Below, piece by piece: positions 2,587 through 14,987 of a stretch of DNA of 49,442 nt (position 1 is the stretch's first letter; each line of letters starts with the position of its first letter). This DNA comes from a virus: positions 1-49,442 of the IMG/VR virus record IMGVR_UViG_3300005338_000014. One strand, written 5' to 3'. Below the pieces are notes generated by a model, which saw nothing but the letters and a program-made list of their open reading frames with translations, was not told the origin of the DNA and did not search any database. A program made the position numbers and the translations under genes.

Positions 2587-3617
2587 GATTGGCCTCCAGA
2601 GCCGAGGGCGCGGATCGCTTTGGCTATGTCCTGACGATGGGAGACGTGATCCATGTCGAAGTTAATCTCGCACGTCTCCGCAACCGCCGCCGCGTCCTCG
2701 ATCCCTTTCCTGTAGGAAGAGGGGTGGGAGGCGAGGATGGCGCGGGCGGCTTTGCGAGCTTCGGCCATGGTAAGTTGAAAGACGATGTAGCCCGGCTCCC
2801 TGGTGTCAGCAGTCTCCCGCTGAATTAGTGCCGCGATCCGCTCGACCTCACCTTCATCTACAGGCTGAGCCGCTGGATCGGGCAGCGCGCCAATGGCTTT
2901 GATGGTCGCCGCCAAGTCCCGGGCCGCCCTTTCGTGAACGGGCCAGCGGGGCTCTACTTCATGGTCGTTCAGCAGCCTGACCAAATGCGAACGGATATTG
3001 GCGAGCAACACTTCATCGGGCGTGGCATCTTTCTGCTGAGCCGCTGGGGGAGCAAAAGGCAGGCCGCAGAGATCGCAATGCGGCTCGATTTCCCCGGCCG
3101 GAACATGGGTGCTTGCATGCAGTCCAGTCTCGCCAAAGCACTGGCAGTGCCTCACCCCTTCCTGCTCGGGCTGAGCCGCTGGACCACGCTGCGCCAGATC
3201 GGGCATGAAGCCGCAGAGTATGCAGGCAGTAACTCCCTTCGGATGCGCCTCGTCGCTCGGGGCGGGCGGCAGAACGTCGAATTGATGCTGGCAGCCTTCG
3301 TTTTCAGACCCCCCCTGCCCAGGCTGAGCCGCTGGCAAATGATCGTCGATCAGTGCCTTAAAGCGGTTCGGCTCTCTGTCGTCGTCAGGACCCCAACCAC
3401 ACGCCGGACAAGGTTCCTGCTCGGGCTGAGCCGGTGATGGGCGGCGGAGGGCTGCGATGATGGCGCGCAGGGCTGCGTTGATCTCGACGCGGCAACCGGT
3501 CAGGCTGAACTTTCCGGCGCTCGCCTTCTCGATCCAGTCTAGGCACTCGCCGCGATCCGCCCACGGCAACATATCCGCCAGCAGTTCTCTCGCTTCACGT
3601 TCGGTAGAGGCGGTCAT
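2583..3617 (-). CDS. modular hypothetical protein with cysteine pairs and AAQPxQ linkers
   Basis: 344 residues. Short segments with Cys pairs (CPACGWG, CILCGF, CQCF, CDLCGLPF) are separated by near-identical linkers of the type PAQPEQE / AAQPGQG / AAQPEQE, followed by a helical C-terminal half (LAATIKAIGALPD, EARKAARAILASH). This suggests several small zinc-binding modules strung on flexible linkers. Accessory proteins of this sort recur in alphaproteobacterial phages, but I know of no established function. Confidence 0.55.
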   Translation of the reverse strand: MTASTEREARELLADMLPWADRGECLDWIEKASAGKFSLTGCRVEINAALRAIIAALRRPSPAQPEQEPCPACGWGPDDDREPNRFKALIDDHLPAAQPGQGGSENEGCQHQFDVLPPAPSDEAHPKGVTACILCGFMPDLAQRGPAAQPEQEGVRHCQCFGETGLHASTHVPAGEIEPHCDLCGLPFAPPAAQQKDATPDEVLLANIRSHLVRLLNDHEVEPRWPVHERAARDLAATIKAIGALPDPAAQPVDEGEVERIAALIQRETADTREPGYIVFQLTMAEARKAARAILASHPSSYRKGIEDAAAVAETCEINFDMDHVSHRQDIAKAIRALGSGGQS

Positions 3618-12669: not shown

Positions 12670-13122
12670 ATGGCCGATGCGCGTGTCCGCCCGCCCGTTG
12701 AGCCGCTGACGGAGCAGGACGCCCGCCATCTCTTGGCGGCCGGTCTCCTTCGCCCGTGTCACGATGCCGGCCCGACCCGCGTCGCGCTGCGCATCGGGTG
12801 CGACGAAAAGACGATCCGCAAGGCTCGCGACAAGGAGACGACGCTCCGGCTCGACTTCGCCTGGAACGCGCTGCTCGCAAGCCCGGGCGCACTCGATGCC
12901 CTCGCCGCTCATTTCGGCTTTCGTCTCGCGCCGCTGGAGGCCGAGCGCTCGCCCGACCTCTCGCTTCCCTGCATCGTGACGCGCTTCCAACTGGAGCTGT
13001 CGATCGCGCTCGAGGACGGCCGGCTGGACGCGAGCGAATTGCTGAAGATGCGGCCGGCGATCGAGGCGCTCGGCGCCGTCGTCGACGACCTGCGCGAGCG
13101 GTTGAAGGTGAGGGTCGCGTGA
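12670..13122 (+). CDS. HTH regulatory protein
   Basis: 150 residues (MADARVRPPVEPLTEQDARH). A probable DNA-binding helix-turn-helix is RVALRIGCDEKTIRKARDKE (about 37-56), followed by TLRLDFAWNALLASPGALDA and LAAHFGFRLAPLEA. The layout recalls phage CII-like or regulatory HTH proteins that open the rightward early operon. The C-terminal half is helical and could oligomerise. Exact role not known. Confidence 0.6.
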   Translation: MADARVRPPVEPLTEQDARHLLAAGLLRPCHDAGPTRVALRIGCDEKTIRKARDKETTLRLDFAWNALLASPGALDALAAHFGFRLAPLEAERSPDLSLPCIVTRFQLELSIALEDGRLDASELLKMRPAIEALGAVVDDLRERLKVRVA

Positions 13123-13172
13123 CGGTCCAAATCGTCATCGGAGACGCGCTGGCCGGAGGCTCACATGCCTAG
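13119..13172 (+). pseudogene. 17-codon remnant of a DNA methylase start
   Basis: GTG 13119 opens MTVQIVIGDALAGGSHA and stops. The first 11 codons match the true methylase start 550 bp downstream, MTVNIIVGDAL, and the GTGA overlap with the previous gene is what one expects of an original gene junction. The HNH gene begins inside this remnant. I read it as the old methylase N-terminus left behind when the HNH gene moved in. Confidence 0.6.
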
Positions 13173-13677
13173 GGGCGTATATGCGCGTAAGCCGAGGACC
13201 GGGGCAATCATCAGGGCGGCCGTGACTTGCCGGGCGTGCGTCTGGGCATGGAAGCCATCCACCGGGATGATGGTCGAGCCGTGTCCACAGTGTGGGAAGA
13301 AGAAGGACGTTCGCCAGCGGCACGGACCGGCCAATCGCTTGGGCGGATTAAGGGCATGGCGCGCTCGGCGTTCAGGCCTCTCCACTGAAAGCAGTCGGCG
13401 GGTCCGCTCGCTGGCCTTGCGCCTCGTCGGAAAGGGAGATGTAAGGTGTGTGCGCTGCGGCTGCGATAGCCCCCAGTTCCTCGAGATCAATCATAAAGAT
13501 GGCGGCGGCACCGCCGAACGCCGCGCACAGCCTGGGCACGCCTTCTATCGAGCAATCACCTCTCTGAGACGATCGACCGACGACCTTGAGCTGCTGTGTC
13601 GGCCTTGCAACGCCGTCCACTCTCTCGAGCTGGTTCATGGCCCGCTTCCGTTTCGTGTCGTGTGGGGGCCGGAATGA
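13165..13677 (+). CDS. HNH-type nuclease (probable homing endonuclease)
   Basis: 170 residues from ATG 13165 (MPRGVYARKPRTGAIIRAAV). Two zinc-binding regions are visible: CRACVW with CPQCGKKK, then CVRCGCDSP. The HNH core is LEINHKDGGG followed by DDLELLCRPCNAVHSLE, with the Asn-His and the final CxxCN typical of HNH endonucleases. It would make a double-strand break at a matching site and promote its own transfer. It lies exactly between the regulator and the methylase gene, whose start it seems to have interrupted and re-created; overlap with the methylase is ATGA. Confidence 0.75.
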   Translation: MPRGVYARKPRTGAIIRAAVTCRACVWAWKPSTGMMVEPCPQCGKKKDVRQRHGPANRLGGLRAWRARRSGLSTESSRRVRSLALRLVGKGDVRCVRCGCDSPQFLEINHKDGGGTAERRAQPGHAFYRAITSLRRSTDDLELLCRPCNAVHSLELVHGPLPFRVVWGPE

Positions 13678-14987
13678 CGGTCAACATCATCGTGGGAGAT
13701 GCTCTCGAAGAACTGCGGAAGCTGCCGAGCGACTCGGTCGATATGTGCCTGACGTCGCCCCCTTACTGGGGGCTGCGCGACTATCAGGTCGAAGGACAGC
13801 TCGGGCTCGAGCCGACCTTGGGCGAGCATCTCGACGCAATGGTCGAAATCTTCGAGGAGGTCCGCCGCATCCTCAAGCCGACCGGCAGCCTCTTTCTCAA
13901 CTATGGGGACTGCTACGCGACCGCGCCGAATGGTCGCTCCGCCGCCGACACCAAGGCCGAGGGCGTCGACGACCGCACCTTCCGCGACAAGCCGTTCAGC
14001 ACTGTCGGGCCGGTGTTCGGAGACCATAAGCGGCGCCCGCCCCAGGGGAAGCATGCATATCGCGAACACGCGAATGGTCGGGTGGCATCGGGCGGTTTCA
14101 TCAAGGCCAAAGACCTGTGCATGATACCGAACCGCCTCGCCATCGCGCTCCAGGATGCCGGCTGGTGGGTCCGCTCCGAGATCATCTGGGGCAAGACCAA
14201 CCCGATGCCGGATAGCTCCGGTGCCCAGCGGCCGTCGACGGCGCATGAGAAAATCTTCTGGCTCGCCAAGTCGGAGGACGCCCCGGTCTGGCGCGCCCGC
14301 GATACCGGCGAGCTTTCGTTCGCGCCCGACCTTTCCGAGCGCTGCCCGCTGATCACGAAGCCCGACCAGCTCGGCGCCCGCTGGATCAGGATCGGGACCT
14401 ATTACGATGCCAATGCGGTAATGCAGGGCCGCACCTCGGACGAGGACGCGAACGGCTTCGGCGAGCCGGGGCCGGGCAAGACGAGGGGCACCCGCAGCGT
14501 CAAGATGCCCGACGGCTGGGACACCGGCGCCGGCGGCCATGGCTCGCATCACCGACAGGGGCGGGAGAAGGGCAAGCAGCTGGCCTGCGCCGAGACGATG
14601 CCGAGCGCCGCTCGCTCGCGGCGCTCGGCAGGCTTCAATGAGCGCTGGGACGAGCAGGAGGCCAACCACGGCCAAGTCGAGGGTCGCTTCCTGCGCAACT
14701 ACGAGCCCGCCGCCCTCCCGGTCTGGGAGATGGGGATCGAGCCGTTCAAGGATGCCCATTTCGCCACGTTCCCGACCGAGCTTGCCTGGCGGGCCATTCT
14801 CGCGGGTTGTCCCGTCGGGGGGACGGTGCTCGACCCCGTCGGCGGCGCCGGCACCACCGGCCTCGTCGCCGACCGGCTCCAGCGCGATGCGATCCTGATC
14901 GAACTCAACCCCGAATATGCCGCGATGGCCCGCCAGCGGATCGACAGGGACCGCGGCGCTCTGCTCGACGCGATGGAGGCGGCATGA
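13674..14987 (+). CDS. DNA methyltransferase (N4-cytosine/N6-adenine, beta class)
   Basis: 437 residues. The catalytic motif IV comes first, TSPPYWGLRDY at 27-37, then NYGDCYA; SAM-binding motif I lies near the C-terminus, LDPVGGAGTTGLVADRL (about 385-401), followed by ELNPEYAAMARQRI, so motif order is that of beta-class amino-methyltransferases. The middle section (about 80-330) contains a variable target recognition region. No cognate restriction enzyme is seen, so it is an orphan enzyme, most likely protecting phage DNA from host restriction. Confidence 0.88.
   Translation: MTVNIIVGDALEELRKLPSDSVDMCLTSPPYWGLRDYQVEGQLGLEPTLGEHLDAMVEIFEEVRRILKPTGSLFLNYGDCYATAPNGRSAADTKAEGVDDRTFRDKPFSTVGPVFGDHKRRPPQGKHAYREHANGRVASGGFIKAKDLCMIPNRLAIALQDAGWWVRSEIIWGKTNPMPDSSGAQRPSTAHEKIFWLAKSEDAPVWRARDTGELSFAPDLSERCPLITKPDQLGARWIRIGTYYDANAVMQGRTSDEDANGFGEPGPGKTRGTRSVKMPDGWDTGAGGHGSHHRQGREKGKQLACAETMPSAARSRRSAGFNERWDEQEANHGQVEGRFLRNYEPAALPVWEMGIEPFKDAHFATFPTELAWRAILAGCPVGGTVLDPVGGAGTTGLVADRLQRDAILIELNPEYAAMARQRIDRDRGALLDAMEAA

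Follow-up and report, generated by a model that had tools for sequence, protein, structure and literature searches.

The early region of the IMG/VR virus record IMGVR_UViG_3300005338_000014 raises the question of how the start of a DNA methylase gene came to be present twice, once in front of an HNH endonuclease gene and once behind it. The record was analysed over its whole length of 49,442 bases, which is called the window here. The locus consists of four overlapping early genes, all read in one direction on the + strand. The regulator-like gene P0003 (12670..13122, 150 aa; phrog_16695, E 3.5e-9, a family of unknown function) is followed by a 17-codon open reading frame, the stub (VTVQIVIGDALAGGSHA, GTG to TAG, 13119..13172), the stop of the former and the GTG of the latter overlapping as GTGA. 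The endonuclease gene P0001 (13165..13677, 170 aa) has its ATG inside the stub, whose own stop lies inside P0001, and a GGAGG within the stub (13155..13159) is likely the ribosome-binding site of the endonuclease gene. The TGA of P0001 in turn overlaps, as ATGA, the ATG of P0002 (13674..14987, 437 aa, MTVNIIVGDALEELRKLPSD), an orphan N6/N4 DNA methyltransferase (PF01555, E 1.1e-36; phrog_67, E 5.2e-59).

P0001 was recognised through its match to the HNH endonuclease profile of PHROGs (phrog_2255, E 1.2e-8); no HNH match was obtained in Pfam or NCBIfam, and no sequence match in the PDB. Relatives sought in viral contigs, phages and genome contigs amounted to none, and no donor was found. The single-sequence structure prediction of P0001 was poor (mean pLDDT 46) and was not used. 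Two features of the methylase body were also observed. At 14832-14856 it reads DPVGGAGTT where the aligned relatives mostly have DPFGGAGTT, position 389 being nearly invariant F, and the variant may weaken what we take to be the cofactor site. The gene also contains, in frame at 14599-14630, a strong inverted repeat (GCCGAGCGCCGC..GCGGCGCTCGGC), in a stretch absent from the relative L003 described below.

Between the first 11 codons of the stub (13119..13151) and those of the methylase (13674..13706), which share a reading frame and lie 555 nt apart, 24 of 33 bases agree, as do 8 of 11 residues; the nine base differences fall 4/0/5 at codon positions 1/2/3. A diverged second methylase start behind the endonuclease gene, and a stub whose GTGA coupling to the regulator persists, had been proposed in the first-pass annotation; both descriptions hold, the overlap being present at 13119. 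The likeness was set against chance with a weight matrix of methylase starts, which took in the window's own methylase start without the stub and was run over 226 loci in six frames, covering 2,463,422 11-mers; the loci are not all independent, since the same contig is in some cases represented by overlapping copies. With 30.2 the stub was the top match other than a methylase start, and higher unassigned scores came only from the real methylase starts of L120 and L111. Below the stub stood another methylase in L188 (20.2), L024 (19.4) and noise from 17.4 downwards, this last figure being the best match unrelated to any methylase start. A chance leader peptide is ruled out by these scores (30.2 against 17.4). 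A group I intron or an intein was also ruled out: no Rfam intron family matched at E 1 or better, and the reading frame of the stub is closed immediately by TAG and later by more stops, leaving no in-frame protein insert. On the matrix score and on its match to L003, codons 1-11 of the stub are a remnant of a methylase start. The footprint of a nuclease gene at the methylase start is real, and it recurs in other loci.

Only one relative, L003, was found in which the regulator stands directly before the methylase, without HNH gene and without stub. Its regulator is 58.5% identical to that of the window and its methylase 76% identical over the best segment, and three further downstream genes are common to both. 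Since L003 has the same gene order without the HNH gene and the stub, the HNH gene is the extra piece, and P0003 is the former upstream neighbour of the methylase. Presence in the window and absence at the same junction of L003 is also the pattern of a free-standing phage homing endonuclease. The earlier proposal that the HNH gene had landed at the methylase 5' end is borne out by this direct junction; the finding named as contrary to it, an HNH-free relative with the same stub or with unrelated sequence in its place, was not seen, L003 having neither. The junction had been predicted to read GTGA, which L003 does not bear out: it reads TAGgcGTG, with two bases between stop and start (4-nt overlaps occur at 102 of the 190 scored junctions in the methylase set). 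The statement that the methylase is essential finds no support here. Relatives of the regulator were also sought in 397 genomes of one bacterial family, of which 11 matched, and at none of the 13 loci was the methylase present within about 1.5 kb. The L003 methylase itself bears an N-terminal extension, MAGEGNR (2698-2718), and its 5' end is unlike that of L004; the two features could have been left by an earlier invasion since lost, or could be normal variation.

L003 also bears on which of the two starts in the window is the older. Over codons 3-11 the stub matches L003 at 23 of 27 bases and the working start at 19 of 27, against a gene-wide median of 85%. Codons 1-24 of the window methylase (13674..13745) are 67% identical to L003 in nucleotides, a value as low being reached in 11 of 361 24-codon windows, and the identity climbs from codon 25, at the conserved motif CLTSPPYWGL (13746..13775), a candidate right-hand recombination point. 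In addition, GC3 dips at codons 8-13 of the working start, and none of 408 later 6-codon windows is as low. Because the identity to L003 favours the stub and the working start has the GC3 dip, these data suggest that the stub is the old start and the working start the newcomer, with codons 1-24 as a candidate for a replaced 5' segment delivered together with the nuclease. The starts of 98 distinct relatives show this preference only weakly: 57 are closer to the stub, 32 to the window's own start, and 9 are ties (mean match 15.9 and 15.3 of 27, respectively). A 5' drop in identity was also found between L003 and L004 (0.58 against a median of 0.74), neither of which has an upstream nuclease; as this drop occurs without a nuclease, a variable N-terminus alone proves nothing. 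The 24-codon drop was rejected as a general marker of invasion, being seen between nuclease-free alleles too.

The clearest case is L095, a Brucella prophage, in which a nuclease open reading frame, preceded by a small gene and followed by the methylase, begins exactly at the methylase ATG. PHROGs names its family HNH endonuclease, in the PDB it comes closest to I-MsoI (E 0.014) and I-CvuI (E 0.49), and it contains the string LAGVIDSDG, which we take to be a LAGLIDADG motif. No relatives of this LAGLIDADG-like nuclease were found in viral contigs, and 297 genomes of one bacterial family yielded its own genome and one weak match (E 8.8e-4). L095 was compared with eight nuclease-free alleles (L094, L249, which is a 100% copy of L094, L250, L251, L252, L254, L255 and L262), L254 only over the methylase and the sequence immediately preceding it; L253 and L256, which have a different methylase body, were left out. 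The blastn alignments of L095 all stop at the methylase ATG/ATGA: those with L250 and L262 cover 1286 nt (94-95% identical), and those with L094, L249, L251, L252 and L255 cover 2994-3016 nt (84-94%). Codons 1-30 of the L095 methylase are 47-49% identical to the eight empty alleles (51% and 47% in gapped 15-codon blocks against L094), whereas from codon 31 onwards the identity is 83-90%, and 87-90% over codons 31-130. Over the same codons 1-30, six of these empty alleles share a mean identity of 95% with one another. The right boundary of the replacement lies near a conserved CVVxSPPYWG motif, and at the left L095 keeps only the start codon of the old methylase start, with no stub.

These alignments show that the nuclease inserted at the methylase start in L095 is accompanied by replacement of the adjoining 5' end of the methylase. 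The first-pass annotation had left it that the start was either duplicated or replaced by a diverged copy; replacement is clear in L095, and in the window it is suggestive only. The reading preferred here, to which we give a probability of about two in three, is that an HNH element invaded the methylase 5' end in the window as a homing-type element, made up of a nuclease and a replacement 5' end of its target.

A second stub was found at L024, where the same place is occupied by a nuclease of the HNH_3 + AP2 type (PF13392, E 6.5e-16; phrog_99, E 1.1e-63) that is unrelated to the HNH of the window. The preceding gene overlaps this nuclease as GTGA, and the stop of the nuclease overlaps the methylase as ATGA. 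The nuclease opens with MTVRIINAD and its methylase with MTVRIIQAD, differently coded; the nine differences fall 3/0/6 at codon positions 1/2/3. Compared with the starts of the closest relatives (L167, L025 and L028), the opening of the nuclease matches at 19 of 21 bases and the working start at 13-14 of 21. Since the nuclease family may itself possess some of the NAD-EARHLL stretch, 6 to 9 codons are counted as derived from the methylase. The closest named-phage relative of the L024 HNH is found in Sinorhizobium phage AP-16-3 (L231, 2474-3080), where it starts at a GTGA overlap. In that phage the HNH and the next gene both have an ANDN stretch near their starts, which may be the common ANDN motif or another case of a shared start.

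The composition of L024 gives some weight to a different origin of the two copies. Its stub is GC3-rich, its methylase has a GC3 near 0.55 with which the working start agrees, and no 24-codon drop in identity was present in the methylase against L026 and L028. Because the working start fits the low GC3 of L024's own genes and the drop is missing, the stub could be the foreign copy in L024. Applied generally, this would mean an HNH gene that came with part of a foreign phage's methylase start already attached and settled at the coupled junction before an intact native methylase. In the window, however, it is the stub that stands at native identity to L003 and the working start that does not, and the replaced piece of L095 is clearly a methylase 5' end in a locus without any stub. 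A foreign stub is thus considered unlikely, and a replaced methylase 5' end is retained as the preferred reading.

The codon positions at which the paired starts differ are relevant to a further possibility, namely that the insertion merely duplicated the methylase start, in the manner of a target-site duplication, and that the copies then drifted apart. The copies do form direct repeats flanking the HNH gene. Against this, 9 of 33 bases differ in the window without one change at codon position 2, the L024 pair repeats the pattern, and a stub released from its function should gain position-2 changes too, an argument that is partly circular as the stubs were recognised by peptide similarity. 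L095, moreover, shows replacement and no duplication. Local duplication is accordingly judged very improbable. Among real methylase starts about 26% of the differences fall at codon position 2, compared with none in the window and L024 pairs; this hints at synonymous recoding of the replacement start, with the bias that the stubs were found by their peptide similarity.

Nucleases may also stand next to the methylase without leaving a stub. The family scan of upstream open reading frames covered 138 of 158 distinct frames, and by other means nucleases were recognised beside the methylase in the window, L024, L095, L121 and L219. In L121 an HNH gene (3076-3501), which follows a NinB-like gene, immediately precedes the methylase and overlaps it as TGATG, without a methylase stub; this counts against the preferred reading. 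In L219 an HNH-like frame is located about 80 nt upstream of the methylase, and no stub was found there. Another possible explanation dispenses with homing and invokes the usual mosaicism of phage genomes, the HNH gene being a passenger and recombination with another phage having happened to end inside the methylase start. HNH genes are indeed abundant in phages (the L024 type alone in 2510 of 50,697 phage records), relatives of the regulator have varied neighbours, and the methylase N-terminus varies where there are no nucleases as well. Chance would nevertheless hardly place nucleases of three unrelated kinds at the start of one gene type, each with a methylase read from an altered start, and mosaicism alone is regarded as distinctly unlikely.

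The preferred reading, a nuclease travelling with a replacement 5' end, would proceed as follows. The nuclease would cut the uninterrupted methylase near its start, and repair would then copy both the nuclease gene and the diverged methylase 5' end of the donor into the recipient. From the identity profiles, the right join would be made by homology in the methylase body around the conserved SPPYWGL motif, and the left join at about codon 11 of the old start in the window, codons 6-9 in L024 and codon 1 in L095. The old start of the recipient would stay behind as the 17-codon stub coupled to the regulator, or as just the start codon in L095. The methylase would now be made from the incoming, differently coded start, the incoming copy being suggestive in the window and shown in L095. 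The altered start should render the allele resistant to the nuclease, and flanking copies that are not identical should resist loss of the nuclease by recombination between repeats. As regulator, stub, HNH gene and methylase all overlap, translation could pass along the operon and the insertion would be tolerated.

Similar arrangements have been described outside phages. The WHO elements of Torulaspora and Lachancea yeasts consist of a nuclease and a resistant, diverged 3' end of FBA1, the old end being left as a fragment; homing takes place without splicing, replaces the target end and yields a chimeric target gene (PMC7282813). As in WHO, an old fragment of the target gene lies on the far side of the nuclease in the phage loci (the stub in the window and in L024, just an ATG in L095). 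A target end beside the nuclease that is foreign compared with empty alleles is clear in L095, while the signs of one are suggestive in the window and ambiguous in L024. The differences are that the methylase 5' end is concerned here and the FBA1 3' end in WHO, that the nucleases are HNH or LAGLIDADG-like here and intein/zinc-finger-derived in WHO, and that the genes overlap in a phage operon whereas the WHO nuclease is transcribed separately; cleavage, a prediction for the phage loci, has been shown for WHO (PMC7282813). The window element would work like the WHO type but is not claimed as a member of it, since it differs in which gene end is replaced, in its kind of nuclease and in the organisation of the operon. 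In the account of mitochondrial mobile ORFs of Glomus and Allomyces, an endonuclease ORF likewise lies between the native gene end and a diverged, largely synonymous C-terminal duplicate, the native copy of atp6 being 91% like its relative and the inserted copy 64% (PMC3630166). Those elements are mitochondrial, carry LAGLIDADG nucleases and occupy the 3' (C-terminal) end, whereas the present ones occupy the 5' end in phages (PMC3630166). By analogy, the phage layout can be described as the 5' mirror image of WHO and of the fungal mitochondrial mobile ORFs.

Phage nucleases offer partial parallels. The free-standing homing endonucleases of T4-like phages ('intronless homing') are HNH or GIY-YIG enzymes that spread by break repair with co-conversion, and they resemble the present genes as stand-alone phage nuclease genes overlapping or coupled to their neighbours (UAAUGA) (PMC2988022). 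According to that account they either split genes or occupy the space between them, with cleavage sites hundreds or thousands of bp distant; a leftover target start together with a replacement start was not noted there (PMC2988022). In the ShiLan element, too, an HNH nuclease parasitises a phage DNA methylase without splicing, hidden within the gene and read through in frame, whereas here the methylase restarts downstream (PMC11855218). Among the titles and abstract openings of the open-access literature searched, which mostly excludes subscription papers, no report of the present layout in phages was recognised.

The loci suggest a route by which a selfish nuclease may enter an overlapping phage operon and leave its target alive without splicing, namely by supplying a new start for the interrupted gene. 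More tentatively, and with rather less than even confidence, phages may be proposed to carry non-splicing homing elements that are mirror images of WHO, each with a nuclease and a recoded, cleavage-resistant 5' end of its target, and that a coupled leader peptide is what remains of the old start. Nucleases of the HNH and LAGLIDADG-like types, unrelated to each other, would then have converged on the start of one orphan methylase, acting as a natural home-and-rescue drive by which its N-terminus is replaced again and again. The footprint is readable, as a short open reading frame repeating the start of the next-but-one gene points to the target of the nuclease and to the empty allele. If cleavage is allele-specific, these elements would be a prokaryotic-virus counterpart of the WHO class, so far a yeast class, and of engineered home-and-rescue drives.
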